Assembly: GCA_030621455.1 (NCBI GenBank) | Contig: JAUXHQ010000003.1 | Location: 1 to 20,868 of the forward strand | Direction: 5' to 3' | Origin: Deltaproteobacteria bacterium | Lineage (GTDB): Bacteria > Desulfobacterota > UBA8473 | DNA length: 20,868 bases | Part shown: positions 3,083 through 20,689 of the stretch, piece by piece | How the letters are laid out: every line of letters starts with the position of its first letter | Position numbering within the stretch: position 1 is the first letter of the stretch | Program-made: the position numbers and the translations under genes | The notes under the pieces: model-generated | What the model saw: only the letters and a program-made list of their open reading frames with translations | Database searches by the model: none | What the model was told of the DNA's origin: nothing

Positions 3083-3117
3083 GGCATTACTCCAGCAGGA
3101 AGTCCATAGTTTATCCT

Positions 3118-3717: not shown

Positions 3718-3721
3718 AGAA

Positions 3722-4507: not shown

Positions 4508-4514
4508 GGATATA

Positions 4515-4832
4515 CTATTCCAACGCTCTTAATGTCACTTCAATAGTCTGTAGTGAGTGACTGGCATAGACATCCCGACTATAAGGGGCATAACCCTCTT
4601 TCTTTATCTCTATCTTGTGGGTACCACTGCTGAGTTTTATATAGCCTGGCTTCCCATCATATCTGTTCGTTTCTCCCATGGAAACCCCGTCTATAAAAAC
4701 CTCTGCATCAGAGGGATTGCAGAGAATCTTCAATGCCCCTTCGTTACCCACGCCTATGGTAGCTTCTCTCGGGGTACCACACCCCAATAAAATAAAGACC
4801 AGAACCAGAGATACAAAGACCGCTTTCTTCAT
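4515..4832 (-). CDS. PEGA-domain lipoprotein
   Basis: A 105-residue lipoprotein. The signal peptide ends in the lipobox LLGC with the lipidated Cys at 18. The rest is one PEGA-type beta domain (about 33-103), recognised by the pattern ILCNPSDAEVFIDGVSMGET, the GYIKLSSGTHKIEIKKEGY block and a final V-T-L strand. PEGA domains are usually surface or periplasmic binding modules with no enzymatic activity. AGG lies about 9 bases before the ATG. The upstream csgG-like gene ends 78 bases earlier and the FecR-domain gene follows after 7 bases, so it fits inside the operon. Confidence 0.85.
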   Translation of the reverse strand: MKKAVFVSLVLVFILLGCGTPREATIGVGNEGALKILCNPSDAEVFIDGVSMGETNRYDGKPGYIKLSSGTHKIEIKKEGYAPYSRDVYASHSLQTIEVTLRALE

Positions 4833-4910
4833 ACTGAAATACCTTTCTGACAGACGAAACGCCCGCCCTAATGCGTATTGAAGGAAACCTGTGGATGGAA
4901 AGAAAACTCG

Positions 4911-5843
4911 CTATGGTTTAAGCTTGACCACATCATTGACCTTGAGCCCCATCCCGGACTTGATGACAACCTTGGTTAGGTTGCTTCCCACATAACCTGT
5001 AACCATCAGTTCACCTCTCATCTGACCTTCTTCTCTCCCCAACAAAACATGGGTCTCAGGGTCATAGATCTCTTCGCCCAATGAATAAACTCCCAAAACA
5101 TCACCGATATTTAACCCCACATCCTTGCCGGAATTTATATATGCATTTGAGCCGCTTATCTTCGCAACCCTTCCGCTCCACTCTACGGTCTGCAACTGCC
5201 TGACAAGGTTATCCATAAATTTCACGATGGCAGACCTTAATGCGTTCTGCCCCATTGTTTCGTCATAACCACCACGCTGCCCAAACCCCAACACTTCAGA
5301 GATCTTCTTTTCGAAGACACCGGAGCCTGAATCAGCAAAAAGCAATTGTCCCGTAGTGGTGTCCACTACCCTGACATCCACGGTGCATTCTGCCTTCTGA
5401 ACCTTCTGCTTATATACACCATAATCCTTTCCCTCTGTTTTAACACCGAACTGGGATATGGAACCGGTTACGATGGCGTTCAAACCTAGTATCTTCCCTG
5501 CCTGGGCGGCTGTCGCAGGGTTAACCGCACCCGACTGTCCCAGGGCCTGTTCTCCCAGAACCTTCTGTAATTGCTCTCTCTCGACCATGATGAATGCTCC
5601 TGTCTTAAAAAGCTCAGTAGTCAGGATATCGGAAGCAGACGATCCCAATCTTCCCTTGCCATAAGCCGTCTTGTTCACAAAATCCACTATCCCAACCCTC
5701 TTTTTAGGACCTTTGGACGCTATCTTGGGCGGTGCGGGCTCCTCTTTCTCGGGAGCCGCTGTCATCGTGGGCATATGGGCGCAGCCAAAAGTACACAAGA
5801 ATAATGCAGTAACTAAGAACGTCATGATTTTCTTACTCAACAT
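4911..5843 (-). CDS. CsgG/HfaB-family outer-membrane lipoprotein
   Basis: A 310-residue lipoprotein with lipobox TFGC (Cys21). A CsgG-like domain spans about 48-218: KKRVGIVDFVNKT, then SSASDILTTELFKTGAFIMVERE, KVLGEQALGQSGA, and IVTGSISQFG before a VDVRVVDTTTGQL strand. CsgG proteins form secretion pores or envelope assembly platforms in the outer membrane. Beyond this core is an extra C-terminal beta-rich domain (about 221-310; WSGRVAKISGSNAYINSGKD, then GDVLGVYSLG), which resembles the C-terminal region of FlgT-type proteins. GGAGG sits 7 bases before the ATG. Two GNA1162-family genes lie upstream, an association known from other Gram-negative bacteria. The exported substrate is not apparent. 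Confidence 0.88.
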   Translation of the reverse strand: MLSKKIMTFLVTALFLCTFGCAHMPTMTAAPEKEEPAPPKIASKGPKKRVGIVDFVNKTAYGKGRLGSSASDILTTELFKTGAFIMVEREQLQKVLGEQALGQSGAVNPATAAQAGKILGLNAIVTGSISQFGVKTEGKDYGVYKQKVQKAECTVDVRVVDTTTGQLLFADSGSGVFEKKISEVLGFGQRGGYDETMGQNALRSAIVKFMDNLVRQLQTVEWSGRVAKISGSNAYINSGKDVGLNIGDVLGVYSLGEEIYDPETHVLLGREEGQMRGELMVTGYVGSNLTKVVIKSGMGLKVNDVVKLKP

Positions 5844-5883
5844 AACCTATCCTCCCATAATTTAGTCTTTTAAAGTGTAACTT

Positions 5884-5913
5884 CATAACTCATGGCACAT
5901 AACTCATGCCATG
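5884..5913. repeat. Tandem 11-bp repeat nested in a small inverted repeat
   Basis: CATAACTCATG occurs twice (5884-5894 and 5898-5908), separated by three bases. Overlapping it, CATGGCA (5891-5897) pairs with TGCCATG (5907-5913) around a nine-base loop. It lies in the 91-bp gap between the second GNA1162 gene and the csgG-like gene, about 40 bases before the csgG ribosome-binding site. It could be an operator or an mRNA hairpin that tunes csgG expression. No clear promoter hexamers accompany it. Confidence 0.55.
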
Positions 5914-5934
5914 TCGCATAGGGCATCATACCCC

Positions 5935-6588
5935 TTACGGCCCCAGGCAGCCGCGTCCGCCTTTAGACGGAACATAGCGAGGCCCATTGGGCAATGTAGA
6001 AAATGTCATGTTAATCAACCGCATCACGTAAGGTTCATATCCCTGCAAGGCAGCAAAGGACAGGTTGTCGACCATGTCATCACTGTCGAGTCCAAACTTT
6101 TTCTCCGCGACCTCGTGCTCTGATTCCCAAAGCTGTCCCCCGGTCCTTGCATCTATGAGTTGAAACCTGGCGCCCACTTTTACTGAAGAGTAAACCACCA
6201 AACAAGTGGTACTCCACTCCGTCACAGTCGCATACAGCAACGCATCAACATTGAGAAGCTCCCCTATCTCCAGGGGGGTCATGGAACCAAGCTGACCCGC
6301 CTCTCTTATGTCCTTTTGGGCGAGTAAGGAGTCGACCCCTGCGACCGCGGGTGTTGCGTAACCCTTACTGAGAATTATGCTATAGAGCCTTGGTCTGAAA
6401 ACACCGCCTGCATCCATGTCCGTGGTTTCATTCTGCACAGGCAACACGGCAATTGACGTCGGCATCTTATCCTGGTAGTCAGGCATAATACTGTGAGGGA
6501 TTTTAGTAGCACAACTACCGGAAAGAAAAAGGATAATTGAAAGAATGAAGATATGTCCAGCCTTCATCCCCGTCTTCCTGTTTATCAT
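5935..6588 (-). CDS. GNA1162-family (DUF799) lipoprotein, copy 2
   Basis: A 217-residue lipoprotein. The frame is open from 6663, but ATG 6588 is chosen because GAGGAG precedes it and the signal peptide then starts properly, ending at lipobox LSGSC (Cys26). The mature part matches the GNA1162/DUF799 family: TSIAVLPVQNETTDMDA, DIREAGQLGSMTPLEIGELL, a TVTEWSTT strand and SEHEVAEKKF. Members are outer-membrane lipoproteins usually encoded beside CsgG-like proteins and thought to help an envelope complex assemble; the precise role is not established. It is a close tandem paralogue of the preceding gene, sharing long blocks of protein and DNA. The csgG-like gene follows after 91 bases. Confidence 0.85.
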   Translation of the reverse strand: MINRKTGMKAGHIFILSIILFLSGSCATKIPHSIMPDYQDKMPTSIAVLPVQNETTDMDAGGVFRPRLYSIILSKGYATPAVAGVDSLLAQKDIREAGQLGSMTPLEIGELLNVDALLYATVTEWSTTCLVVYSSVKVGARFQLIDARTGGQLWESEHEVAEKKFGLDSDDMVDNLSFAALQGYEPYVMRLINMTFSTLPNGPRYVPSKGGRGCLGP

Positions 6589-6616
6589 AGCTAACTCCTC
6601 TTCTTGTATATAGCTT

Positions 6617-7345
6617 TCAGTCTTCAAAAAATGTGAAAGAGCACACCGAATACTCCCCTTCACCCGTGAAAGGGTGTAGAGAAAACGGACAAATAAGTCT
6701 ATCCCTCACTTTGCGAGGGATATGCCTGCGGTGCTTTCCAGGGGGTATATGCCTGTAACCGTTGGGTAACGTGGAAAATGCAGCATTGATAAGTTTCTTG
6801 ACGTAAGGATCATATCTGCGCAAAAGAGTAAAAGTCAAGATCTCCTCTATGGCATCCTCATCCAACGCGAACTTCCGTTCAGCAACTTCATGCTCCGATT
6901 TCCAGAGTTCCTGTCCTGTCCGCGTATCAAAGATCTGAAATCTGGCTCCCACCTTTATTGAGGCGTAACTCACCAGATAGGTAGTACTCCACTCCGTCAC
7001 CGTAGTATATAGCACCGCATCAACACTGAGGAGCCCCCCTATCTCGTGAGGGGTCATGGAACCAAGCTGACCTGCCTCCCTTATATCCCTTTCCAGGAGT
7101 TTTGAATCAATAACCGACGCCTGAGGGGAGACATACCCTTTATGGGTAACCATACCAACCAGCCATGTTCTGAACACTTTCGGCGCATCCATGTCCACGG
7201 TTTCATTCTGAACAGGCAACACGGCAATTGACGTCGGCACCCTCTCTTTATAATCCGGCGTCACATAATGAGATGTCCTCGGCACACAACCACTGAAAGT
7301 GAAGACCAACATTAAGAAGAAGAGGCTAAGTCTGGGACATCTCAC
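6617..7345 (-). CDS. GNA1162-family (DUF799) lipoprotein, copy 1
   Basis: A lipoprotein of about 242 residues with lipobox FSGC (Cys20). GTG 7345 is preferred over GTG 7351 because the purine-rich GAGAGGGAG element would otherwise abut the start codon. The core carries the same GNA1162/DUF799 blocks as the next gene (SIAVLPVQNETVDMDA, DIREAGQLGSMTPHEIG, TEWSTTYLVSYASIKVGARF, ALDEDAIEEIL). After the shared FSTLPNG it has an extra basic and aromatic tail of about 35-40 residues (GKHRRHIPRKVRDR and onward) that the second copy lacks. The tail may be accessory sequence or drift after duplication. It lies 25 bases after the FlgT-like gene and 28 bases before copy 2. Confidence 0.84.
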   Translation of the reverse strand: MRCPRLSLFFLMLVFTFSGCVPRTSHYVTPDYKERVPTSIAVLPVQNETVDMDAPKVFRTWLVGMVTHKGYVSPQASVIDSKLLERDIREAGQLGSMTPHEIGGLLSVDAVLYTTVTEWSTTYLVSYASIKVGARFQIFDTRTGQELWKSEHEVAERKFALDEDAIEEILTFTLLRRYDPYVKKLINAAFSTLPNGYRHIPPGKHRRHIPRKVRDRLICPFSLHPFTGEGEYSVCSFTFFED

Positions 7346-7370
7346 GTACACTCCCTCTCAAAACAGTGCA

Positions 7371-8564
7371 TTACTTGGGGAGGATGGTAAGTTCGATCGC
7401 GTTCTGTGTCATCTTGGTTATATTGATCGAGAACTTCTGAAAACTCTTGGTGGCCAATTCATCAGCAAGAGATTGGGCGTCACCCTTTATGTCTATATCA
7501 ATCTTGGCTACACCCGCAGATATGCTCCTCTGATGAACGCCTTTAACCCCTCGCAACTCTCCTTTCAACACATTCTTGAGACTCAGGAAATCTTGATAGC
7601 TGGAGATCCCGTTCACAGTCATCTGAACGAGCGTGGTCCCACCAATCTCATCGCGATGTGTACCCAGTATCTGGTCCATAAGTTTAGAAGCCAAGTCAGA
7701 AGCCGACTTTTTAAGGGCCTCTGTTCCGGCCGTGATCTCATCTATGTGAACCGCGGCTCCATGGCTGCTTGTTGAAGCGATAAACGCCCCGGTGTCGGTT
7801 CGGATCGCCCGTGCCGTTACGTTTGCCTGGCATGATTTCATCGAAGTATTCATTACATTGCCCACATATTTAGCCAGTGCCTTGCCAACGATTACCACCT
7901 CAGCATCGTACTGATTTCCAAGGGACATAGCCGTGTTGTCATTTAGATTCACAACCCGGTAAGCCTTGCTTACCCTTATGTTTCCAGCCTTGGCAGCGTG
8001 ATCAACAACATTGAAACCCTTTTCCCTGAATTTCTCAACCAAAACGGTTTCAGTAACGGAGAGGTCCGTTTCAGAGGCATGATACCCCCACCAGTATCGG
8101 TAATGTTCGTGACCTATGTTCTGTTCCGCAATCAAGAAGATGACCCTCGGTTTGTGCTTCCTTGCCAGTATAAGGCCTATGGCTGCCAGGTCATTCTTGA
8201 GATCGCCCATTGCCACAGTGGCTTGTACTGTAACCTTGTAAATGGGTTCAACAGAAGCTTCCGATATTATCCGGTAGTTTTGTATATACCCCTGGGTTTT
8301 CGTGTAGATTTTATCACTTAGGAGTTGATAGTTTTCGACCCTGGTCTCCGAAGATACCAGAGTACCCACAGCCTGCTCAACCGCCTTTCTCAACGCATCT
8401 TCGATGGCGCTGTCTCTGGCCATGGCCTTGTCGTTATTCCGAATGGCGGCCATACCCTCTGCACTCACAACCTGTGGTTGAACAGTCTGCTGCGCAACAG
8501 CGTAACCGGCGAAAATAACGATCACCAGAAAACACAGAGACCATACCCTAATCGGTTTCTCCAA
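7371..8564 (-). CDS. FlgT-like secreted envelope protein
   Basis: About 397 residues with an N-terminal signal peptide (about 1-24). The frame is open from ATG 8597, but that ATG lacks a ribosome-binding site. TTG 8564 has AAGGAGG seven bases upstream and puts the signal peptide at the N-terminus. The first part (VVSAEGMAAIRNNDKAMARD, SAIEDALRKAVEQAVGTLVS, then YKVTVQATVAMGDL) resembles the N-terminal domain of the flagellar assembly protein FlgT, which is also found in non-flagellar envelope proteins. The middle (about 140-270) resembles a CsgG-like fold with YDAEVVIVGKALAKYVG. The end (about 300-397) is another small alpha/beta domain. No flagellar gene is nearby, so an envelope-lipoprotein-operon role is more likely than flagellar assembly. 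Confidence 0.72.
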   Translation of the reverse strand: MEKPIRVWSLCFLVIVIFAGYAVAQQTVQPQVVSAEGMAAIRNNDKAMARDSAIEDALRKAVEQAVGTLVSSETRVENYQLLSDKIYTKTQGYIQNYRIISEASVEPIYKVTVQATVAMGDLKNDLAAIGLILARKHKPRVIFLIAEQNIGHEHYRYWWGYHASETDLSVTETVLVEKFREKGFNVVDHAAKAGNIRVSKAYRVVNLNDNTAMSLGNQYDAEVVIVGKALAKYVGNVMNTSMKSCQANVTARAIRTDTGAFIASTSSHGAAVHIDEITAGTEALKKSASDLASKLMDQILGTHRDEIGGTTLVQMTVNGISSYQDFLSLKNVLKGELRGVKGVHQRSISAGVAKIDIDIKGDAQSLADELATKSFQKFSINITKMTQNAIELTILPK

Positions 8565-8578
8565 GACACCCCCTCCTT
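8565..8578 (-). promoter_or_regulatory. Ribosome-binding site selecting TTG start
   Basis: A full AAGGAGG (8578-8572) lies seven bases before TTG 8564. The in-frame ATG at 8597 has no comparable element. This decides the start of the FlgT-like gene. Confidence 0.75.
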
Positions 8579-8776
8579 CTTTGTCCAGGGACAACATCTT
8601 TCACTTTGCAGGGCTTCGGCCAGCGACTTGATCTTACCTGGATCTGTTATATGTCATTTCGTTTCCTTCGTATGCTTCTTGGAACAAAGACCGACAACAA
8701 TTGCTCATTAGCCTATTCCGACCCGTCAAGGCCGACTTCCAACTTTTATATATCTTCGGTTGTCTTCTCTTTTTCT

Positions 8777-9952
8777 TTAGAAAAACCTCAATTCATCCTT
8801 GAGCTTCCTGATAATCAACAAGGCATCGGCGCCGGAGACCGGGTCCATTGAAGCGAATTCACCGGTAGTCAGATCCTTTGCCTCCATGATTCCTCGGGTA
8901 GTAACGACCATGACCGCATTGAAATAAGGAAGGTCACTCCTCAAATCAGGGAATGGGGATGAACTTCCAATGTACTTTGTGGCAAGTTTCCGATCTCCAC
9001 CAACTTTTATCAGAATGTCCTGTACCATTATGGCATACGAAGCCCTGGTTATGAGCTCATCAGGAACAAAGGTATGATTCGGGTAAGGTTCCAGTCCTTT
9101 TATGCCAATTTCCATGACAGTTTGTATGTCCGTCCTCAGAACATGGTCAGAAATATCAGTGGCAGCTTCAGTCTTCTCGATCTTATCGGCGGCAAAGGCT
9201 GTCGATGGGGCCTTGTAACTCGTGTCAAACCTTTTTGGAGATCGCTTCTTGTAGAGTTTCTCCAACTCCAGTTCCTGAATAAATAACGCGGCCATGTCCG
9301 CTCTGGTCACTTTATCTATCAGCGCTATCTTCTTACCTATCAAACTTCCAGGGGCAGCTCTCTGGATCTTTTGAACGAGTTTCCAATGGTTGCTCGCGGC
9401 TATCAAATACTTATCATTGATATCCAGCACTTTCTTAAACATCTCGCCTGCTTTGTCGAACTCGTAGGCGAGCTTATATGCTTCACCCATATAGTAATAG
9501 GCAGCCGACGATTCAGGATCGATATCGATTGCGTCTTCAAAGTTATTCTCTGCATCATCGAGCCAGTCTTCCTCTCTTTCCATCGCGTAGATCCTAACCA
9601 GACCGACCAAAGCATTAACCTTCTCATCCTTGGTCTTGGCATAGTTCTTACCCTTCTTTGCGTTGGCAAATGCCTCCTCAAAGTTACCTTCATAACCGTA
9701 TACCAGACCAAGCCCGGTAAAAGCAGCGGAAAATTTCGGAGATAACTGTATAGCAAGGCCAAATTCCCGTTTTGCGTCCTCATATTTCCCTTTGTCCAGA
9801 AGTTTCATCCCGCTAAACACGTGATGGTCCGGAGTATCTAAGGCGCTCACGGCTTTCCTTGGTTTAGGGCCACATGCGCCAAGATAAACCAGAGACAATA
9901 TTAAAACCGAAAGAAAAATCCACCTCACCGTATGCATCTCTTCTAGCTTCAT
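8777..9952 (-). CDS. TPR lipoprotein with C-terminal S-layer-homology-like region
   Basis: About 391 residues from ATG 9952, which has AGGAGG six bases upstream. A longer frame exists to 10051 but would bury the signal peptide. The lipobox LGAC puts the lipidated Cys at 27. Tetratricopeptide repeats occupy about 43-192 (GMKLLDKGKYEDAKREFGLA, then GLVYGYEGNFEEAF, YYYMGEAYKLAYEFDKAGEM). The C-terminal half (about 215-388) has S-layer-homology features: VTRADMAALFIQEL, FVPDELITRASYAIMVQDIL, and FPDLRSDLPYFNAVMVVTTR followed by GIM and MDPVSGADALLIIRKL. TPRs bind partner proteins and SLH modules bind cell-wall polymers, so this may be an anchoring scaffold. It follows the LPP20 gene by 71 bases. 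Confidence 0.82.
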   Translation of the reverse strand: MKLEEMHTVRWIFLSVLILSLVYLGACGPKPRKAVSALDTPDHHVFSGMKLLDKGKYEDAKREFGLAIQLSPKFSAAFTGLGLVYGYEGNFEEAFANAKKGKNYAKTKDEKVNALVGLVRIYAMEREEDWLDDAENNFEDAIDIDPESSAAYYYMGEAYKLAYEFDKAGEMFKKVLDINDKYLIAASNHWKLVQKIQRAAPGSLIGKKIALIDKVTRADMAALFIQELELEKLYKKRSPKRFDTSYKAPSTAFAADKIEKTEAATDISDHVLRTDIQTVMEIGIKGLEPYPNHTFVPDELITRASYAIMVQDILIKVGGDRKLATKYIGSSSPFPDLRSDLPYFNAVMVVTTRGIMEAKDLTTGEFASMDPVSGADALLIIRKLKDELRFF

Positions 9953-9964
9953 TTTTCCCCTCCT
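9953..9964 (-). promoter_or_regulatory. Ribosome-binding site selecting ATG 9952
   Basis: AGGAGG (9964-9959) is followed by six bases and ATG 9952. This supports the internal start of the TPR/SLH lipoprotein over the frame opening at 10051. Confidence 0.75.
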
Positions 9965-10023
9965 GTTGGTTTCGTGGACCTTGCAAAAAGCTGTCGCATT
10001 GAACACGAAGGAATCATCAAAAA

Positions 10024-10848
10024 TCAATCTACGACAAACATTACGCGGCATTGAGATAAGAAACTAAGGTTCCTGGAGGAATCCCTCAGCATAGTCGCAT
10101 CGGAACTGCTTATGACCACATTACTATTCCCTGATCCCTCAGTTTTTATCCCTTTGACGATGATAGGGTTGTTTGCCACGCGCTCATTCTGTCTAGCCAC
10201 TTCAACATCTTTTCCGTAACCAACTATCCCTTGCTGAATCGCAAATTCTCTTGACACATAAGCAGAGCCGTAAACCTCTCTCCCCTCTTCATCAATAACC
10301 TTCGGGGACATGGCCGGGTGGAGTTCCAACCCCTTTGTGTCAATAATAAGCCCCGTATATATCGGACTGCCGGCAGAAGGTGCCGATTGTCCGCCCGTAG
10401 CAGGCAACAGGATGTCAGCCAATTCTCCTGTAATGGGCATTTCGATAATCACTTCGACACCACCATCGTCAAAGTATTTCTTGTCAACCACCTTGGCCCC
10501 ACGAACGAAGCCTTGAACCCTGGACTGTATTACATCGCTTTGGGTCATCGCATTTACTACTGTGGTTTCCGAGTCAATCCTCACCCCTTTTATAGTCTCT
10601 AAAAGATTTCTCATAGCATCCACTTTGGCGGCTCTCTCCGCACCTAACCTTGCAACTGAGATGTTCGGCGAAGACGGGCTTGGAGCCCCACTACCAAGTG
10701 CCCTTATTACACTAGTTGTCCAGTTCACCTCCCCTTGACCGATGGTCTGGATGACTTGACCCGAATTGCCTTCCAGTAAACCACCAACGGCAAAAGAAAA
10801 GAGTACCAAGAAAAATGATAAACCCATTATGCCTGCCTGCTTCTTCAT
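10024..10848 (-). CDS. LPP20-family secreted protein
   Basis: A 274-residue protein with an N-terminal hydrophobic signal segment (about 1-23) and no lipobox Cys, so it is probably periplasmic rather than lipidated. The region about 30-150 matches the LPP20 family pattern: IGQGEVNWTTSVIRALG, then ARLGAERAAKVDAMRNLLET with VRIDSETTVVNAMTQSDVIQ, and GAKVVDKKYFDDGGVEVIIE. The C-terminal part (about 160-274) has TGLIIDTKGLELHPAMSPKV followed by an EVYGSAYVSREFAIQQG block, probably a second beta-rich domain. AAGGAGG lies directly upstream of the ATG at good spacing. It is the first gene of the envelope operon, behind the predicted promoter at 10986-11014. Its function is unknown beyond envelope location. 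Confidence 0.78.
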   Translation of the reverse strand: MKKQAGIMGLSFFLVLFSFAVGGLLEGNSGQVIQTIGQGEVNWTTSVIRALGSGAPSPSSPNISVARLGAERAAKVDAMRNLLETIKGVRIDSETTVVNAMTQSDVIQSRVQGFVRGAKVVDKKYFDDGGVEVIIEMPITGELADILLPATGGQSAPSAGSPIYTGLIIDTKGLELHPAMSPKVIDEEGREVYGSAYVSREFAIQQGIVGYGKDVEVARQNERVANNPIIVKGIKTEGSGNSNVVISSSDATMLRDSSRNLSFLSQCRVMFVVD

Positions 10849-12320: not shown

Positions 12321-13721
12321 CTAAACCTTTACCTCTTTACCCGTAAACACCTGATCTACCTTGAGGTTCTCGAATCGGAAGGTACTGTACCTCGTCAGAA
12401 TCCTTGCGGGTTCATCATCAGTTAGCTCCGTCCCCCTGTAGTAGGTCTTCTTTTGGGGCCTGTCATTCACTATCTCATGATCCTCAATGACTATATCTCC
12501 GCCCTTTATCAGATAAGCACAGTCGCTGAAACGGTCTTTCAATTCATCTGCCCTTGTGTCTTCGTCAATGTCATAGATCGCTATGTCCGCTTCCGCCCCC
12601 ATACCCAGATGTCCTTTATTGTCCAAACCGAGGATGTCCGCTGGGTTCTGCCTGGTAATCCTTGCAATATCCATCAGGGAATACTCAAAGCAAGGAAGCT
12701 CTTTTTCAAACAGGTTGTCCCTGTTCTCGGCTCGCATCAGCCATGAAAATATTTTCGGGTATGCCTGGAATGACGCATTGGCAGGGCTGTCCGTTGAAAA
12801 CGATATACGCTTGAGAGGCTCGCTGAGGGCGAGTTTCAAGGCTAAAAACGGGGCTTCTCCCTCCGGGACCTTTCCCCGGGAGAAAATGATAGGCTCAGAG
12901 AGTCCCATATCAACGCTCCCGTAAATTTCACCATATGCTTGCTTCGGTGTCGATATCTTCAGGTTTTCCTCAAAATCGAACAACCCCAAATCTACAGAAG
13001 CTCCTCCGTCCATGTACGTCAAGACCTTCTCGTAGTCTTTTTCACTGCCCATGACTGAACCCACCTGGGAGAAATGATAGGTTCCAGGATTTTCAATCTC
13101 TCGTTTCAGCAGCTTCGGATAGGTATGCATGATTACCCTCGGGATCCTCTCCTTGCTGATACTCGAAAAAAATTTAAGCACCTTCTTTTCTCTCACATTT
13201 CTCATGATAAACTTCCTTTGAGCGTATTTTACGAAAGGTTCGTATATCTTCAGCCCGATAGCCTTGGCCCTGGCCACGGCGACAGACAAAGCCTTCTCTA
13301 CCTCTTCGAGATGCTTGGTAGATCTGATCTTTTCCTCAATATCCATTAAGTTCACAACGAGGAAGGATGAGGTGTCCAATATGGGTATTGAAGATAGCTC
13401 ATGATGGACATAATTGGCAGTCAATTGGGTCATGAAGGGCTCGTTTACGTGAGTATATCCCATCTTCGCGTATATACGGCCTATCTCAGTGGGTGAGTAG
13501 AAACGTTTCATCCCTCTTATCAGATTTAATCCATAGGTAGCTACGTGGCTGTGGATATCAATACCCCCTGCCATGATGGCTCTTCCGGATGCGTTAATAG
13601 TCTTGTCGACAGTGGAGGTCCTATCTACGATCTGTCCTCCCTCTATAAAGATGTCACCCTCTTCTCCGTTGAGGTTGTTCTTAGGGTCGTATAACCTTCC
13701 CCCTTGTATCCTTATCTTCAT
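12321..13721 (-). CDS. Formylmethanofuran dehydrogenase subunit A-like amidohydrolase
   Basis: A 466-residue amidohydrolase of the FwdA/FmdA/FhcA branch. In archaea subunit A hydrolyses or forms N-formylmethanofuran at a binuclear metal site; in methylotrophs FhcA works in a formyltransferase/hydrolase complex. The metal motif G-G-I-D-I-HSH-V gives His57 and His59. K158 in GLKIYEPF fits the carboxylated lysine, His199 lies in a strand where a ligand is expected, and D311 in STDSPANASFQAYP matches the catalytic Asp. The usual length is about 550-570, so roughly 100 residues of loops are missing and the remaining metal-ligand His cannot be placed surely. AAGG lies close before the ATG. Subunit B is encoded upstream, separated by two unrelated genes. 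The bacterial substrate is unknown. Confidence 0.85.
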   Translation of the reverse strand: MKIRIQGGRLYDPKNNLNGEEGDIFIEGGQIVDRTSTVDKTINASGRAIMAGGIDIHSHVATYGLNLIRGMKRFYSPTEIGRIYAKMGYTHVNEPFMTQLTANYVHHELSSIPILDTSSFLVVNLMDIEEKIRSTKHLEEVEKALSVAVARAKAIGLKIYEPFVKYAQRKFIMRNVREKKVLKFFSSISKERIPRVIMHTYPKLLKREIENPGTYHFSQVGSVMGSEKDYEKVLTYMDGGASVDLGLFDFEENLKISTPKQAYGEIYGSVDMGLSEPIIFSRGKVPEGEAPFLALKLALSEPLKRISFSTDSPANASFQAYPKIFSWLMRAENRDNLFEKELPCFEYSLMDIARITRQNPADILGLDNKGHLGMGAEADIAIYDIDEDTRADELKDRFSDCAYLIKGGDIVIEDHEIVNDRPQKKTYYRGTELTDDEPARILTRYSTFRFENLKVDQVFTGKEVKV

Positions 13722-13792
13722 ATGGTCCCTTTACAATTCTTCAACCTCTGCGGTCACCCCTCAGCAATCATCCAGACAAAGCGTCTAACCGG

Positions 13793-14521
13793 TTATCCCT
13801 GTGGATTGTCCGACGTTTCATCAAACATCCTCGCACGAAACGCCCTCAATTCGTTTCCGAGGAGTGAGTATGTCCATCTCTTTCCCGACCTGGTTTTGAA
13901 CCCACGGTCATTCAGGAGAGCGACAATCTTACGATGGGGGACCCCGCGCGTCGCATGTTCGTGGGCAGTCTTCACTGCTTCTTCAAACTGATCCCTGTAT
14001 TGTTCTCTAACTGAGGGGGCCGACGGTTCCTCTTCCTCTTCCTCCACCTTGTTTCTTCCTTCAACCTCATAAGATATGTCAGCCTCTCTTGCCTTTGTCT
14101 CCCTGTATTTGCCCAACATCTCTTCATATACGGGGCAATCGCGATCACAGTGTGCCTTGAAGGGGTTATTCTCACACCCGCAATCAAGGGTAGTGTCTGA
14201 TTTGTAAATATACTTGATGTTGGACTTTGTACTGTGCCGTATCTTCGAAGGAGAACTGGAAGATATGGAAGACAGGACATCGACACAATATCTATTCATC
14301 CAATCCCGGCACTCATCTGCAGATATGCCTATATATTTGAACCAGGCCGCCAAGAACTGAGTCAGGTCTTGACGGGAAGGCGTGCGCTCTCCCTCAGGGA
14401 ATCGTTCCATCGAGAGTCCATTTGTGACTAGATCCTTGATACAATGGAATAAGCGCCCCTTATTATTTTCTTCAAGGGCCTTTCTCAATCCTTCCAGGTT
14501 CATATCCGTGTTTGATGGCAT
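13793..14521 (-). CDS. Unrecognised protein with Cys cluster and recombinase-like helix-turn-helix C-terminus
   Basis: I do not recognise this 242-residue protein as a whole. The middle has a compact cysteine set (C114, C116, C125, C129 in a C-x-C-x8-C-x3-C pattern, with C71 and C79 earlier), which could hold zinc or an iron-sulfur cluster. An acidic run (about 159-165) links it to the C-terminal segment. There, TRGVPHRKIVALLNDRGFKT followed by RSGKRWTYSLLGNEL (about 191-224) resembles the winged-helix recombinase domain of large serine recombinases, but no catalytic resolvase domain is present. It is therefore more likely a DNA-binding protein than an active recombinase. It starts five bases after the ASCH-like gene with no strong ribosome-binding site, suggesting translational coupling. 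The two genes together split fwdB from fwdA. Confidence 0.6.
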   Translation of the reverse strand: MPSNTDMNLEGLRKALEENNKGRLFHCIKDLVTNGLSMERFPEGERTPSRQDLTQFLAAWFKYIGISADECRDWMNRYCVDVLSSISSSSPSKIRHSTKSNIKYIYKSDTTLDCGCENNPFKAHCDRDCPVYEEMLGKYRETKAREADISYEVEGRNKVEEEEEEPSAPSVREQYRDQFEEAVKTAHEHATRGVPHRKIVALLNDRGFKTRSGKRWTYSLLGNELRAFRARMFDETSDNPQG

Positions 14522-14526
14522 TTTGA

Positions 14527-14820
14527 TTATTCATATGCGGAAATAGTAATCGCGGTTCCCCATCGAACCTCCAGAACCGGCCCCAGCTGTAAAGCATAAA
14601 CCCTTTTGCCCTGCCAGGTCCCGAACTTCCATCCACGATAGACAACCCTCATGAATGGATCACCTTTCCGGTATCCATTCCGGAAGTGGATTTCATCATA
14701 ATTACGGTTTTCAATCCGTTTGGCCCAATAGGGCTTGATCTCCCGATATTCCTCATGCTTCTCACCTGAAGCGATCAAATCAAACCATCTACGCTTCACT
14801 GTCAGGTGTAAAATCTTCAT
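14527..14820 (-). CDS. Small ASCH/DUF3850-like protein
   Basis: A 97-residue soluble protein. Its N-terminus, MKILHLTVKRRWFDLIASGE followed by KHEEYREIKPYWAKRI, is typical of ASCH and DUF3850-type proteins, a PUA-like fold linked to RNA or nucleotide binding and often found in phages and mobile regions. The later RKGDPFMRVVYRGWKFG block and the charged surface agree. No catalytic role is assigned. It begins 24 bases after fwdB without a clear ribosome-binding site and is followed at five bases by the Cys-cluster gene. The pair may be a small cargo unit within the Fwd operon. Confidence 0.75.
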   Translation of the reverse strand: MKILHLTVKRRWFDLIASGEKHEEYREIKPYWAKRIENRNYDEIHFRNGYRKGDPFMRVVYRGWKFGTWQGKRVYALQLGPVLEVRWGTAITISAYE

Positions 14821-14844
14821 GGTTTATAAAATTGCTTGAAAAGG

Positions 14845-16131
14845 CTAACTTAGACGATGGTATATGTCCTCCAGTATTACCTCGTCCGATGGGTAGTCAG
14901 TCTCCAGAACCTTCCTCAGTTTAAGGGGGAGGCCATCCATCCTGTAAGCTATCCCTTCCGCTTCCACCCCCGTGATTGCCGTCGGGAAGACCACCTGGCA
15001 CTTGTTGGTTGTTCTCGTCCAGAACGGATCAATGAGAATTATCGGTATCTTCTTCAGCTGGTCAGAATGTTCCGAGGGCATAGACCAAAATGGGTCCTCT
15101 CCAACCACCAACGCTGCATCGATCTCATGGAGGTTTTCCAGTAACGTGGGCATACCGTGGTCAGCCGGATGGTCACAGGAAAAATCCGCGGGCACAGGAC
15201 TTCCCAATTCCCTAAGGAGAAGTTGCATTGCTCCGTTTGTGTTGAAATCGTCGTACAGAGGAACGATTACGAACCTTGTCTTCTGGTTCAACTCCTTGAC
15301 GAGGGTCATAAGAGTCTCGACATTCCTGACGGCATTGCCGTTACGTGACAACCCCAACCCAAAAAAGATCGCGCCATAGGCCGCCCTGGCCATATACTGA
15401 ACCATATCTTGTATAGCGGCAATATCCCCTTCGTAGTCTTCAACCTTTTCGTTCTTCAACAGTTTTATCATTGTTTCCATTGCGAGAAAATCAGTGCCCG
15501 GCTCTACCATCAGATATCTGCGAGACATCCTGACCAATTCATTTTCCGCAACATCCACAGTGAATACAACCCTGTCCAGATTTCCCCTTTCCTTACATCT
15601 CCCCCTTGGGTAGAGGGAATACCGGGCTAAGTGTTTTGGGGTAGAGTGTACCGGGTTGCACCCCCAATAGACGATAACGTCGGCGCTATTCCTTACCTCG
15701 TCTAAGGGCGCAATGTAAAAGCCTGAATTCTTCATCGCGGAATAGTACGGACTCAGGAGGACTGCCTTCCTCGGTTCAAACCATCCCTTTAACACTCTAG
15801 CGATATCTAGTGCGACATTTTGAGCGTAATATCCCGAGTTTGTAAGTCCGTATACTAACGGCTTCCTTGAGCACTTCAAGATATCCACAGCCCTGGAAAC
15901 GGCCGTTTCATAATCGGTCTCCACCAGGTTGTTTTCCCTGACCATCGGTCTTTCTACCCGCCCCCTTTTTACAGTAGAGGTAAACTTCTTGGTGAAAAAA
16001 AACTTGTTAATGCCCCATTGACAGACATTTCTTATGGACTTTACCTTATTGTCGGCAACTACTACGTCGATGTCATCACACAGACAACCACAGGAAGGGC
16101 ATATCACCGATTCATACAATGTCTCCGCCAA
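14845..16131 (-). CDS. Formylmethanofuran dehydrogenase subunit B-like protein with degenerate active site
   Basis: A 428-residue molybdopterin-oxidoreductase-like protein matching FwdB/FmdB in length and layout. The N-terminal [4Fe-4S] ligands are intact (C11, C14, C18 in CPSCGCLCDD, and C37). The core has VYWGCNPVHSTPKHLARYS (154-172) and LVVGEDPFWSMPSEH (341-355), as in FwdB. The catalytic segment, normally V-C/U-H-G-P with the Cys or Sec metal ligand and its His, reads V-L-L-S-P (124-128). The protein should therefore not work as an ordinary CO2-reducing or formate-oxidising centre. Methylotroph FhcB is likewise regarded as catalytically silent. The start is TTG 16131 with GGAGGT five bases upstream. 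It follows the iron-sulfur protein gene by 37 bases and may pass electrons or act as a scaffold for FwdA. Confidence 0.87.
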   Translation of the reverse strand: MAETLYESVICPSCGCLCDDIDVVVADNKVKSIRNVCQWGINKFFFTKKFTSTVKRGRVERPMVRENNLVETDYETAVSRAVDILKCSRKPLVYGLTNSGYYAQNVALDIARVLKGWFEPRKAVLLSPYYSAMKNSGFYIAPLDEVRNSADVIVYWGCNPVHSTPKHLARYSLYPRGRCKERGNLDRVVFTVDVAENELVRMSRRYLMVEPGTDFLAMETMIKLLKNEKVEDYEGDIAAIQDMVQYMARAAYGAIFFGLGLSRNGNAVRNVETLMTLVKELNQKTRFVIVPLYDDFNTNGAMQLLLRELGSPVPADFSCDHPADHGMPTLLENLHEIDAALVVGEDPFWSMPSEHSDQLKKIPIILIDPFWTRTTNKCQVVFPTAITGVEAEGIAYRMDGLPLKLRKVLETDYPSDEVILEDIYHRLS

Positions 16132-16142
16132 ACTTCACCTCC
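16132..16142 (-). promoter_or_regulatory. Ribosome-binding site for TTG start of fwdB-like gene
   Basis: GGAGGT (16142-16137) lies five bases before TTG 16131. The next ATG choices in frame would remove the first [4Fe-4S] cysteines, so the TTG start is strongly supported. Confidence 0.8.
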
Positions 16143-16168
16143 ATCTTTCATAAGGGCGTAGGTTCAAG

Positions 16169-16636
16169 TCAGACAAGGCTGATAGCCTTGGTGGGACACA
16201 ACTCTACACATGCTCTGCATATATAGTCGGATGGGTCCGCCCGCCGGCAAGACTGAGGGTCCACCAGTTTGATCCTTCCGTTATCTATCCTCAATACCAC
16301 ATCGTCTGTAAAGCGAGGGCCTCTTCCGGATTCCACCTCTTGACTCTTCTCCAGGTTTATCTCACATACTACAACACATATGCCGCATCCATTACACTTT
16401 TCCGGCTCAATCAAGAGCCCTGTTACCTCCTTCTCGAAATCCAGACCAGGGCCTAAAAGCTCGTTCAGTTTGGCAAGAGACTCTGAATACCCTGGTTCCA
16501 AGAGAATGGGGCAGTCTTCCGGTCTGACATCTCTGGAGATCAGGTGATTGGCAAAACCCAAACATGAAAAACCGCACTTCTTGCAGTCGGTTTTCGGGAG
16601 ATACTTTTGCAACTGATACATTGACAACTTTGCCAT
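16169..16636 (-). CDS. Multi-cluster iron-sulfur protein (CODH/ACS-type Fe-S domain plus ferredoxin domains)
   Basis: A 155-residue electron-transfer protein. The first part has the Fe-S domain seen in corrinoid iron-sulfur proteins and CO dehydrogenase/acetyl-CoA synthase subunits (C18, C21, C25, C42 in DCKKCGFSCLGFAN and CPIL). A ferredoxin-like cluster follows (C81, C84, C87, C91). The last set is unusual: C130 lies nine residues before C140, then C143 and C147, where a standard ferredoxin has two residues. Three [4Fe-4S] clusters are predicted. Its place between hdrA and fwdB matches the role of FwdF/FwdG-type polyferredoxins that wire Hdr to Fwd in methanogens. It probably carries electrons between the flavin HdrA pair and the FwdB-like subunit. 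Confidence 0.83.
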   Translation of the reverse strand: MAKLSMYQLQKYLPKTDCKKCGFSCLGFANHLISRDVRPEDCPILLEPGYSESLAKLNELLGPGLDFEKEVTGLLIEPEKCNGCGICVVVCEINLEKSQEVESGRGPRFTDDVVLRIDNGRIKLVDPQSCRRADPSDYICRACVELCPTKAISLV

Positions 16637-16714
16637 AGAACCATCCTATGTCTTACCACACCACATCATGTCTGTAACTCCGGAATGCGGGAACGAAATA
16701 AGGTTACACTCAAT

Positions 16715-18346
16715 TCACTTTGAAAAGAGCGTACACACCTTTGCCGCCGCCCCGCTGGCTTGAGACACCGTTTCAGGTATATCTTTCGGCCCCTGGCATG
16801 TCCCGGCTAAATAAATTCCTTTCCTCAATGTCTCCAGGGGTCTCGATGCCGGATGGAGCGAACGGATAAAACCGTGCCTGTCAGTTTCTAGATCGAGTAT
16901 CTCAGCAAGCCGGGTAGTCTCTTCAGAAGGCTCAAGTGCCACCGCCAGGACCACCATATCAAACGCAACCTCACTTACCTTTCCGGTCTTAGTATCTTCA
17001 AACAAAACGATGGGATCTCCGGTGTCGGTATTCTCCGTTATCTCACCGGGTAGGCCTTTGATGAATTTCATCCCTTCTTTTTCCGACCGAACGTAGAGTT
17101 CCTCGAACCCCTTCCCAAAGGCACGAAGATCGTTGTAAAAGATCCATACCTCTGCATCAGGCTCATGTTCCATAACCAATCTACCCTCCTTTATACTGGC
17201 CAAACAGCAATAAACGGAACAGTACTCATGGAAATGGACATCTCTGGAGCCGACACATTGGATGAAGGCCACCTTCTTTATATGTTTACCATCCGGTCTT
17301 ATAAGTTCTCCACTGGTTGGACCGGACGCACATATTATTCGCTCAAACTCGATATTGGTAAACACATTCCTTATCCTACCGTATCCATACTGTCCCTTCC
17401 TGGAGGCATCGAAGGTCTTTGTACCAGTCGATACAATGATGGCTCCGACCTTCAAGGTCAGCGTCTTTGGCTCTTCGGAAAGGTTTATGGCATCCAATTC
17501 ACAGACCTTCGTGCATAGTCCGCACTCAATACATTTTTCCTTATCTATAGTATATCTCAAGGGCACCGACTGGGCGAACATAACATAGATGCACTTTCTG
17601 GGCTTCAGGTTAAGATCCCATTCGTTAGGTAATATCACGGGGCAAACCTCGACGCAGGCGCTACAGCCGTTGCATTTTTTCATATCCACATATCTCGGTC
17701 TAACCTCGATCTCTGCGTTGAAATTTCCCGCGTCGCCAGTTATGTTCGTTATCCTGGCATTTGTTATTAGCTCAATGTTAAGATCCTTCGAAACGTCTAC
17801 GAGCTTAGGCCCAAGGATACATATTGAGCAGTCCATGGTTGGAAAGGTCTTGTCAAGTTGGGCCATGATGCCGCCTATAGACAGAGTACTCTCCACCACA
17901 TAGACCTTATAACCCGCTTGAGCTATGTCCAGGGCAGCCTGGACCCCTCCCACACCCCCGCCTACTATGAGGACCTCTTTTATCATCCTTTCTTCTTTGG
18001 GAAACTGTCCCCCGTCCTCCTTCAGCCTTTCTTTCAGTATATCGAGGAGGCCTTCTTTATCCGTCACCTTGTTTATATCAATATACCCTATGCCGATTTT
18101 CTTCAGTTGGGGCAACTTGTTGAAGGTATTACGGTGGACATCCTCGGCACATGCCATGATCAATACGCGATCGAGTTCATCCTCCTCGACACGATCACAT
18201 AGAAACTTTAACCCCTTCTGCGAACAGAGGTACTTCTGCGAATAGAGGACACTGTTGGGCAAATCCATAACTTGAGCATCTTTTTCCAAATCAAAAGCAA
18301 AGCCGGAAGACGGACATGCACATAGAAAGATGCCGGTCTTGTTCAT
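16715..18346 (-). CDS. hdrA: HdrA-like flavoprotein, short form
   Basis: A 543-residue heterodisulfide reductase subunit A homologue. It carries the FAD-binding GGGVGG motif (129-134), the HdrA signature TFPTMDCSICILGPKLVDV (168-186, with C173 and C176), two ferredoxin-type clusters (C225/C228/C231/C235 and C272/C275/C278/C282), and a later VGSR...YC..YCC set (C364, C376, C380, C381). Archaeal HdrA is the electron-bifurcating flavoprotein of Hdr complexes. This copy has a shortened N-terminal domain and stops after the flavin fold, lacking the C-terminal ferredoxin and MvhD domains of its neighbour. GAGGGG lies six bases before the ATG, within the end of the preceding hdrA-mvhD gene. The two genes are probably translated together and may form a heterodimer. 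Confidence 0.9.
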   Translation of the reverse strand: MNKTGIFLCACPSSGFAFDLEKDAQVMDLPNSVLYSQKYLCSQKGLKFLCDRVEEDELDRVLIMACAEDVHRNTFNKLPQLKKIGIGYIDINKVTDKEGLLDILKERLKEDGGQFPKEERMIKEVLIVGGGVGGVQAALDIAQAGYKVYVVESTLSIGGIMAQLDKTFPTMDCSICILGPKLVDVSKDLNIELITNARITNITGDAGNFNAEIEVRPRYVDMKKCNGCSACVEVCPVILPNEWDLNLKPRKCIYVMFAQSVPLRYTIDKEKCIECGLCTKVCELDAINLSEEPKTLTLKVGAIIVSTGTKTFDASRKGQYGYGRIRNVFTNIEFERIICASGPTSGELIRPDGKHIKKVAFIQCVGSRDVHFHEYCSVYCCLASIKEGRLVMEHEPDAEVWIFYNDLRAFGKGFEELYVRSEKEGMKFIKGLPGEITENTDTGDPIVLFEDTKTGKVSEVAFDMVVLAVALEPSEETTRLAEILDLETDRHGFIRSLHPASRPLETLRKGIYLAGTCQGPKDIPETVSQASGAAAKVCTLFSK

Positions 18347-18349
18347 GAT

Positions 18350-20689
18350 CTACCCCTCTAAATCCTTCAAAACGTTTGCCATCTCCTTGGTAACTCTTTG
18401 AAATACTATGCCTTCTGCGGCGGATACCCACTCCAATCTGAGCCGCCTGGGGTCTATGCCCTTCTTGGGCAGGGTCTTCATCAACGAATTAACCCTTTCT
18501 TCGCACCTGTAGTTCCCGGACACGTAATGACAATCTCCCGGAGGGTGACACCCTGAGACGAGTATCATGCCTGCTCCCTTATCAAAGGCATAGCGTATAA
18601 TGTCCTTACTCAACCTGCCTGAACACATGGTCCTGATTATCCGAACATTGGGGGGATACTGTAGCCTGGACACACCCGCAAAATCCGCACCCGCATACGA
18701 ACACCAATTACAGCAGAAGGCTATTATCTTTTCCCCCGGGTTCTCTTCAAGGGCAGCATCTATTTGTGAACATATCTGTTCTGTGGTGAAACCCAGTGCT
18801 TCTATCGCTCCTGTGGGACATGCCCCGGCACATACACCGCATCCCTTACACGCGGCCTCAATAACTCTCGCCTTCTTCTCCCCCTCGACATCCACTTCCT
18901 CTATGGCCAGGAAGGGGCATTCTTTTATGCAAATCCCGCATCCCACACACTTGTCTATGTCCACCTTCGATATGATTCCATCGAGCCTCAGTTTGTCCTT
19001 GGAGAAGAGTCCGCATACCTTGGCAGCAACTCCACTGGCCTGTGCTACAGATTCAGCTATATCCTTCGGACCCAGACAGGCACCGGCCAAATAGATTCCG
19101 TCAATAACAGTGTCTATGGGCCTAAGCTTCGGATGGGCCTCCATAAAGAAACCATCGGGACCTGTGGGAACCTTCACTATCTCCTTGAGAAGATCCGTGT
19201 CTCTGCCGGGTTCCATTCCCACAGCCAGCACCACCATTTCCGTATCCCTGGATCTCATACGGTTGAGGGCGTCACTGTGTGCCTTTATCAAAAGGTTATT
19301 GTCTTCCGTTTCGGTCACCTCAGTAACGTCCCCCCTGACGAAGAGCACCCCGGCCTCTCTGACGGATCTGTACATCTCCTCGAACTCTCTCCTCGGTATC
19401 CTTATGTCCTTATGATAGACGCTTATATCCGTTTCCGGGGATAGAGATTTCAACAATTTTGCCTGTTTTATGGTTGACATGCAGCAGATTTTTGAACAGT
19501 ACTCGTTCCCCTCTTCTTCCCTTGAACCGATGCATTGTATGAAAGTTATTTTCCGGGGCTCTCTCCCGTCAGAAGGTCTCAATGGGTGTCCCCCTGTTGG
19601 CCCATCGGTATCCAGCATCCTCTCCAACTGGAGTGAGGTAATCACATTCTTGAATTCACTGTAAGCATACCCTGGCTTATTTTGGGGATCAAAGGAGTCG
19701 AATCCCGTGGCCACGATAATACTGCCGACCTCCACCTCCAATTCTTCTTCTTTTCCCTCAAGATCTACCGCATCCACAGGACAGCATTCCACACAAAGTC
19801 CGCACCTTGTGCAGTGATCCATATCCACAACATACGTGGAAGGCGTGGCCTCTTCAAAGGGAAGATAGATCGCCTTTCTCGAACCGATACCTGTGTTGAA
19901 TTCATCCGTGACTTCTACAGGGCACACCGTGGTGCATTCACCGCACAGGATACAATCTTCTTTGACATATCGGGGGTGCCTTACGATTCTCACCTTGAAA
20001 TTGCCGATAAATCCCTCTACGGACTTCACCTCTGAATTCGTAAAAACTTGGATCTTCGGGTGGATTACCGCCTCTGTCATCCTGGGGATAAGTATGCATT
20101 TTGGCGGTGTAGAATCAGAGGAGATCCCCGAGAGCTGAGCCACCTTGCCTCCGAGAGTAGGCGCTTTTTCTACGAGATAGACTTGATGACCAGCGTTGGC
20201 TATGTCAGAGGCTGCCTGAAGACCGCTAATGCCACCACCGATGACCAAGGCTCTTTTTGTGGTGGGAACTTCCCTGTCGGACAGTGGCTGAAGAAGCCTT
20301 GCCTTTGCTACCCCCATCTTGACGAGATCCATAGCCTTAGTCGTAGCCATATCAGGCTCGTGCATATGGACCCAGGAGCAGTGTTCCCTTATATTAACCA
20401 TCTCCATAAGATAAGGGTTCAGGCCGGCCTCTGCAACAGCCCGCATAAAAGTAGGCTCATGGAGTTTAGGAGAACAGGATGCCACTACAACCCGATTTAA
20501 ATTATGTTCCTCTATGTCTTCTTTAATCTGAGTCTGACCTGTTTCAGCACAACAATAAGTATTCTCCCTGGCTATAACCACATTGTCGAGGGAAGACGCA
20601 AAATTAACTACCGCAGAGGGATCGATTACCGCCGCGATATTCTTACCGCAATGGCACACATATACCCCGATCCGTATCTCTTCACTCAC
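18350..20689 (-). CDS. hdrA: HdrA-MvhD fusion flavoprotein
   Basis: A 779-residue fusion. The HdrA part (about 1-563) has an N-terminal Cys-containing domain, the FAD motif VIGGGISG (149-156), two ferredoxin clusters (C246-C256 and C293-C303), and the C386/C398/C402/C403 set. Two more [4Fe-4S] clusters follow (C581-C591 and C614-C624). The C-terminal part (about 650-779) is an MvhD/FlpD [2Fe-2S] domain with FCCNWCSYAGAD, TMCSGR and SGCHPPGDCHY. MvhD links HdrA to hydrogenase or formate dehydrogenase in methanogens. The HdrA signature segment reads STPPKCIL (193-200), so only one of the two usual cysteines (C198) is left. The start is GTG 20689 with GGGGTGA upstream. No hydrogenase, HdrB or HdrC gene is seen. 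It leads the operon. Confidence 0.92.
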   Translation of the reverse strand: MSEEIRIGVYVCHCGKNIAAVIDPSAVVNFASSLDNVVIARENTYCCAETGQTQIKEDIEEHNLNRVVVASCSPKLHEPTFMRAVAEAGLNPYLMEMVNIREHCSWVHMHEPDMATTKAMDLVKMGVAKARLLQPLSDREVPTTKRALVIGGGISGLQAASDIANAGHQVYLVEKAPTLGGKVAQLSGISSDSTPPKCILIPRMTEAVIHPKIQVFTNSEVKSVEGFIGNFKVRIVRHPRYVKEDCILCGECTTVCPVEVTDEFNTGIGSRKAIYLPFEEATPSTYVVDMDHCTRCGLCVECCPVDAVDLEGKEEELEVEVGSIIVATGFDSFDPQNKPGYAYSEFKNVITSLQLERMLDTDGPTGGHPLRPSDGREPRKITFIQCIGSREEEGNEYCSKICCMSTIKQAKLLKSLSPETDISVYHKDIRIPRREFEEMYRSVREAGVLFVRGDVTEVTETEDNNLLIKAHSDALNRMRSRDTEMVVLAVGMEPGRDTDLLKEIVKVPTGPDGFFMEAHPKLRPIDTVIDGIYLAGACLGPKDIAESVAQASGVAAKVCGLFSKDKLRLDGIISKVDIDKCVGCGICIKECPFLAIEEVDVEGEKKARVIEAACKGCGVCAGACPTGAIEALGFTTEQICSQIDAALEENPGEKIIAFCCNWCSYAGADFAGVSRLQYPPNVRIIRTMCSGRLSKDIIRYAFDKGAGMILVSGCHPPGDCHYVSGNYRCEERVNSLMKTLPKKGIDPRRLRLEWVSAAEGIVFQRVTKEMANVLKDLEG

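Follow-up and report, generated by a model that had tools for sequence, protein, structure and literature searches.

The window analyzed here, a stretch of 20,868 nucleotides from a deltaproteobacterial metagenome-assembled genome (MAG) of the Desulfobacterota (contig JAUXHQ010000003.1; G000:C138:1-20868), encodes two HdrA flavoproteins, one of them fused to MvhD, next to homologues of the Fwd subunits FwdG, FwdB and FwdA. Judging from the sequences, this gene set represents an Hdr-linked Fwd derivative predicted to be devoid of CO2 chemistry, whose FwdG is fused to a domain of the corrinoid/iron-sulfur protein (CFeSP) type, and it falls outside both Fwd/Fmd and Fhc on the features tested. The set is conserved among sulfate reducers and related anaerobic bacteria. 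In it, FwdB has lost the residues of the tungsten site and FwdG has gained the CFeSP-type domain, an iron-sulfur domain of a type that works with vitamin B12 proteins, a combination that makes electron transfer, and not CO2 fixation, the probable function of the bacterial genes. We tentatively favour the view that the Hdr-Fwd supercomplex gave rise in bacteria to a derivative in which a CO2 reducer would have turned into an electron relay, with a new outlet that possibly serves CFeSP or CODH/ACS.

The genome (G000; 1.92 Mb, 292 contigs, 78% complete) carries dsrA above the cut-off in a profile search, and the nearest named relatives are Desulfobacterales/Deltaproteobacteria MAGs. The 18 long genes examined in the window are without exception on the minus strand; among them, seven open reading frames (ORFs) run co-directionally from 20689 to 12321. 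An earlier note on this DNA had described these as a co-directional run with HdrA-MvhD, a second HdrA, an Fe-S gene, FwdB and FwdA, and both the ORFs and the family matches bear this out. The contig end is only 179 bases from hdrA-mvhD, and HflX follows FwdA. In 5' to 3' order, the seven genes are:

18350..20689, minus strand: HdrA-MvhD fusion, 779 aa, GTG start; putative FAD/Fe-S hub with the full set of HdrA domains plus MvhD
16715..18346, minus strand: short HdrA, 543 aa, without C-terminal ferredoxin and MvhD
16169..16636, minus strand: FeS-FwdG, 155 aa; CFeSP-type [4Fe-4S] domain (about 1-63) plus FwdG (about 72-155)
14845..16131, minus strand: FwdB-like subunit, 428 aa, listed with a TTG start; [4Fe-4S] cysteines present, catalytic residues replaced
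14527..14820, minus strand: 97-aa phrog_625 protein (E 5.4e-24) with a weak ASCH resemblance (E 0.014); insert
13793..14521, minus strand: 242-aa protein with a weak recombinase-type helix-turn-helix (HTH_62 E 1.3e-4, Recombinase E 0.004, both below cut-off); insert
12321..13721, minus strand: FwdA-like subunit of the FwdA2 clade, 466 aa, amidohydrolase fold

In the sister genome G001, the genes for the 97-aa and 242-aa proteins are found at the corresponding position (96% and 94%); they occur only in L015 and L028 among six f1 loci tested, and were not found in the relatives' loci L016-L019. They are lineage-specific inserts, so that of the seven genes counted in the earlier note only the other five form the conserved unit.

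FwdB scores 369.2 bits against TIGR03129, above the cut-off of 327.8, and matches the structures 8rja_B (E 7.4e-80) and 5t5i_B (E 1.4e-77). In the window protein, C118, H119, R288 and H290 are replaced by L, L, Y and D, and the residue tables thus agree with the earlier impression that this subunit looks inactive. Each of the four residues is found in 0/21 bacterial FwdB rows, with the [4Fe-4S] cysteines retained. A second set of positions (W149, G150, N152, P153, D185, G253, G255, N292, G295, D336, D344 and R395, in 5t5i numbering) is kept in 19-21 of the 21 rows; several of these fold residues, which lie near the pterin-type motifs, are missing in FhcB.

The 155-aa product, announced as a multi-cluster Fe-S protein, is an Fe-S protein as claimed, but its identity can be refined to a FwdG homologue (5t5i_G, E 8e-12; 9sfi_U, E 3.5e-13) with an extra N-terminal FeS domain. 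This domain has the four-Cys [4Fe-4S] fold found in the large subunit of CFeSP, as seen in the first 60 residues of the predicted model, which alone were used because the FwdG half is poor (pLDDT mostly <60). Twelve cysteines are invariant across 11 FeS-FwdG sequences. The other ferredoxin subunit of Fwd/Fmd has a FwdF-like counterpart on another contig of G000 (G000:C131:4835-5665), with matches to FwdF of solved complexes (5t5i_F, 3.4e-27; 9sw6_H, 1.9e-28; 7bkb_K, 7.9e-26). The FwdF-like gene directly precedes hdrA-mvhD in G002, G004, G005 and G007 and also adjoins it in G214, while in G000 and G001 it sits on other contigs. The fusion of FwdG to a CFeSP-type domain, the FwdF-like gene and the two inserts had all escaped the earlier note.

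HdrA-MvhD aligns with the full-length HdrA structure 5odc_A (E 1.5e-224), the residue aligned to Cys197 being present, and its MvhD part matches FlpD/MvhD (E 1.7e-46); against NF040770 it reaches 1052.8 bits, below the cut-off of 1100. Through its predicted FAD and ferredoxin domains and MvhD, the protein fits soluble Hdr-type bifurcating complexes. The short hdrA gene lies 3 bases away and its product is the probable partner of the fusion: it matches 8rvu_a (E 2.5e-145) across residues 13-569 of that chain and stops before the C-terminal ferredoxin. HdrB and HdrC acceptor subunits were not detected in a Pfam scan of the window proteins. HdrB homologues are present elsewhere in 10/10 genomes, with two matches in G000, and an HdrC-like gene is found in 17/30 clusters. 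In clusters of the Desulfobacca type, we observed a double HdrA (about 1050 aa, two flavin domains; L052:11209-14382) followed by a DUF3795 protein (L052:14454-14876).

FwdA scores 209 bits against TIGR03121, below the cut-off of 392.75, and its predicted model has the FwdA/FhcA fold. Its metal site was assigned by alignment alone, using the four His, Lys and Asp given for FwdA-type sites in PMC11656701. In the window protein H57, H59, K158, the beta-5 His and D311 are present and a Gln replaces His at position 219, the codon being CAG here and CAT in the sister genome. The binuclear ligand set (four His, carboxylysine Lys, Asp) is complete in 5/6 members of the window's family, the exception being the window itself (H219Q), and in the Alkanophaga copy. 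It is complete in 0/26 rows of four sister families that have the same FwdB-FwdA-FwdG core and in 0/22 rows of ANME-1, which have Arg or Lys in place of the beta-5 His. FwdA of the window's family may additionally still bind two metals.

Both subunits form clades of their own. In the FwdA tree (50 rows), a clade of 36 rows is separated from FwdA/FhcA (100/100), and within it the bacteria (27 rows, 100/95) have ANME-1 plus Alkanophaga (9 rows, 94/87) as their sister group. This tree requires only one change for the loss of the metal site; families f2, f13 and f71 are on long branches, which makes their placement unsure. In the FwdB tree (41 rows), the corresponding clade has 27 rows (100/100) and is divided into archaea (94/88) and bacteria (90/89). 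Searching nine ANME-1/Alkanophaga genomes with a gene of the FwdA2 clade, using the window FwdB as query, we found an extra FwdB in seven at 47-49% identity and another in Alkanophaga at 39%, while G398 has the canonical type alone. C118 is present in all eight of these extra proteins, and H119 and H290 are also kept in this sister group. Because the sister FwdB retains C118 in 8/8 cases, the common ancestor probably held the metal.

The ANME-1/Alkanophaga second FwdA and FwdB thus are sister groups of the bacterial subunits in both trees (42-45% identity for FwdA), but they differ in that the two genes are unlinked to each other, with variable surroundings, and in that the ANME FwdB has C118, H119 and H290. 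At these loci (L191-L198; L029-L047), we observed that the second FwdB has CHN or CHS in place of CHG and that the second FwdA is shorter. A fusion with FwdB ahead of the ANME-1 FwdA was considered and rejected: the upstream neighbours (537, 598 and 384 aa, among others) are unrelated proteins, and ANME-1 FwdA therefore stands alone. No gene is common to at least three of the eight ANME-1 FwdB loci, FwdB itself aside.

The order HdrA-MvhD, short HdrA, FeS-FwdG, FwdB, FwdA is retained in G001, G002, G004 and G005 (97 to 71% identity), and in G007 the cluster is split across two contigs. We surveyed 395 genomes of the phylum, 32 of which have a FwdA match at E 1e-20, and counted 30 for the cluster. 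The two left out, G209 and G251, gave partial matches in 545-aa frames; G251 (L159:2377-5299), from another family of the phylum, encodes FwdB and FwdA as a conventional pair that has C118 and a full metal site, and G209 was excluded by analogy with it. FwdB is adjacent in 29/30 genomes and FeS-FwdG likewise in 29/30, the exception, G172, stopping at a contig end. The synteny check proposed at the outset hence came out in favour of a conserved module. The fetched stretches, some of them clipped by contig ends, contain HdrA in 20 genomes, HdrC in 17, FwdF in 12 and DUF3795 in 10. In three relatives, the interval between short hdrA and FeS-fwdG harbours, at a single site, genes that are different and unrelated (L016:2338-7502, L017:5815-7834, L018:5720-7493), coding for a reverse transcriptase, a DisA-like DAC domain with phosphoribosyltransferase, and nucleotidyltransferase-like proteins.

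Besides the order of the window, a second layout (Desulfobacca type) reads FwdB-FwdA-FeS-FwdG-HdrC-double HdrA-DUF3795-FwdF-HdrA-MvhD, and a third, in family f71, reads FwdF-HdrA-MvhD-short HdrA-FwdB-FwdA-FeS-FwdG-HdrC-double HdrA in one run. The f71 layout links that of the window with the Desulfobacca type. G214 has FwdB-FwdA-FeS-FwdG-HdrC-double HdrA-DUF3795 at one place and FwdF-HdrA-MvhD-short HdrA at another. Families f2 and f13 possess the three-gene core with no HdrA in the stretch; in f2 (L151, L024) we observed a third, very divergent FwdB-FwdA-FeS-FwdG group.

The dN/dS values show purifying selection and argue that these genes are not decaying. In comparison with the sister genome they are 0.20 for HdrA-MvhD, 0.42 for short HdrA, 0.06 for FeS-FwdG, 0.15 for FwdB and 0.13 for FwdA (HflX control, 0.20), and between G004 and G005 they are 0.13, 0.12, 0.03, 0.18 and 0.12, respectively. 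FeS-FwdG has the lowest value in both comparisons.

The partners of conventional Fwd and Fhc appear to be missing. Ftr/FhcD (TIGR03119) was detected in 0/10 genomes, seven of them at least 90% complete, with a profile that gives matches in both control genomes, M. jannaschii and M. acetivorans. FwdC has no match in G000 (78% complete) and a match above the cut-off in 0/9 relatives; the weak matches in eight of these nine (best 45.8 against a cut-off of 130.65) have counterparts in E. coli and B. subtilis. FwdD is not among the window proteins in the Pfam scan, no genome-wide search having been made for it, and a hydrogenase is not beside the cluster, again with no genome-wide search. The statement of the earlier note that HdrBC, FwdC, FwdD, hydrogenase and Ftr are lacking agrees with these scans of the window and with the genome searches for Ftr and FwdC, which returned nothing elsewhere in G000, and no conventional Fwd/Fhc operon was seen around the copy in the sister genome (L015). 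We also considered a conventional Fwd operon elsewhere in the genome and rejected it on Ftr, FwdC and the FwdB residues, for a MAG that is 78% complete and with FwdD unsearched genome-wide.

How might such a module work? HdrA genes are encoded together with FwdG and with a FwdB that retains its cluster cysteines. As a FwdF-like gene is in the same genome, the parts for an Fe-S cluster chain leading from the flavin of HdrA to FwdB are available. Electrons would pass between MvhD/HdrA and FwdF-FwdG, and the HdrA pair, FwdF, FwdG and FwdB would constitute a cluster chain no longer ending in CO2 chemistry. Exit or entry would occur via the new FeS domain of FeS-FwdG, docking to a protein partner for which CFeSP or CODH/ACS would be the best candidate, for example in the reductive activation of cobalt. 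FwdB would mainly be a frame that holds the electron-transfer arm, with FwdA as its structural partner. The gamma subunit of CODH/ACS (NF003195) is found in 27/30 cluster genomes versus 227/365 others (Fisher p 0.0014, uncorrected for kinship), and in 25/26 cluster genomes at least 90% complete, by hand count. CODH/ACS is likewise present in most genomes that lack the cluster, and the cluster genome G085, 99% complete, has no match to the gamma subunit.

It might be instead that FwdB still holds a metallopterin without the cysteine ligand and, supplied by the Hdr flavin hub, catalyzes another redox reaction. In some enzymes of its superfamily, no protein residue coordinates the metal. The fold residues near the pterin-type motifs, so widely retained in bacteria, are in several cases lost in FhcB, which is pterin-free according to PMC11656701, and the sister FwdB of ANME-1 has C118 throughout, all of which speaks for a cofactor. 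However, the four metal-side residues are gone in 21/21 bacterial rows and FwdD, which shares the pterin site of FwdB, is not in the cluster; the same source connects the lost pterin of M. extorquens with its lost D subunit. On balance, we consider a retained metallopterin rather unlikely. We give somewhat less credit to redox-coupled hydrolysis or condensation by FwdA, whose binuclear site would act on an unspecified substrate, a form of which had been suggested in the earlier note. In its favour are the predicted fold, the dN/dS of 0.13 and a ligand set that is complete in the Alkanophaga copy as well as in most members of the window's family, but the window copy has a Gln at the fourth His, neither the sister families with the same neighbours nor ANME-1 have a full set in any row, and FwdC, which forms a wall of the channel between the two sites, was not found. 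As a general explanation the proposal is thus not supported, given H219Q and the 0/26 rows, and redox-coupled hydrolysis by FwdA is conceivable for the window's family only.

The remaining alternatives fare much worse. A conventional Fwd using FwdC and FwdD encoded in trans draws on the incompleteness of the genome, the unsearched FwdD and the weak FwdC-profile matches in 8/9 relatives, but it is highly improbable given that all these matches are below the cut-off and are shared with E. coli and B. subtilis, that Ftr is missing in 10/10 genomes, and that no bacterial row has C118. The lost catalytic residues and the two inserts between fwdB and fwdA might evoke a decaying operon without function, to which we attach the least credence of all: the frames are intact with dN/dS of 0.06 to 0.42, the core is retained in five family groups, and the cluster cysteines are invariant.

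Coming back to the electron relay, among its closest known counterparts are the methanogen Hdr-Fwd supercomplexes (PDB 7bkb, 9sw6, 9sfi), with which it has in common HdrA, an MvhD domain and homologues of FwdF, FwdG, FwdB and FwdA, several of them clustered. The bacterial module differs from these in that FwdC does not exceed the cut-off, the cluster contains neither FwdD nor HdrB and FwdB is without the tungsten ligand, as well as by the CFeSP-type domain on FwdG, the short HdrA paralogue and a shorter FwdA. With the Fhc of methylotrophs (6s6y) it shares a FwdB homologue without the metal-ligand cysteine; in contrast to Fhc, it is linked to HdrA and has neither FhcD/Ftr (0/10) nor an FhcC above the cut-off, its FwdB retains fold residues lost in FhcB, and the two are in separate clades in both trees. 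The fwdDBA-ftr-fwdC system of Hakuba Actinobacteria (PMC7325909) also consists of bacterial Fwd homologues in a genome with an hdrA-mvhD cluster, but unlike the module of the window it has FwdC, FwdD, Ftr and Cys118 and is without FwdFG. Two unlike HdrA genes side by side recall the tandem HdrA heterodimers of ANME (PMC9012536), as does the double HdrA of the window's relatives. The complementarity described in that source is nevertheless not what we see, since neither window copy has lost the N-terminal domain or the counterpart of Cys197; the asymmetry of the pair lies in the C-terminal ferredoxin, which the short copy lacks together with MvhD only.

A bolder proposal, which we consider speculative and more probably wrong than right, is a third Fwd-type assembly beside Fwd/Fmd and Fhc, in which the FwdFGBA arm, its CO2 chemistry lost, would wire the Hdr flavin hub to CFeSP or CODH/ACS, with the CFeSP-type domain of FwdG as the connection. 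Flavin-based bifurcation would then be the direct source of power for activating cobalt or cleaving acetyl-CoA in sulfate reducers that oxidise acetate, Desulfobacca among them. If true, bacteria would have retained components of the methanogens' central machinery for CO2 fixation purely for electron transfer, removing its catalytic residues and adding a domain of the acetyl-CoA pathway, and there would be a concrete, testable candidate for low-potential electron delivery in the acetate oxidation of sulfate reducers, within an isolate having a complete genome. A literature search over titles and abstract openings returned no description of the bacterial module, an account in print still being possible. 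Annotations of fwdA and fwdB in bacterial genomes are no safe sign of methanofuran-dependent C1 metabolism.

On the far side of the window, positions 254-10848 hold a run of genes of outer-membrane/lipoprotein type, comprising NHL-CsgG-fn3, PgsA-like, FecR, PEGA, CsgG, two GNA1162-like, FlgT_N/LipL46-like, TPR/SLH and LPP20 proteins, which looks like a CsgG-type lipoprotein assembly cluster.

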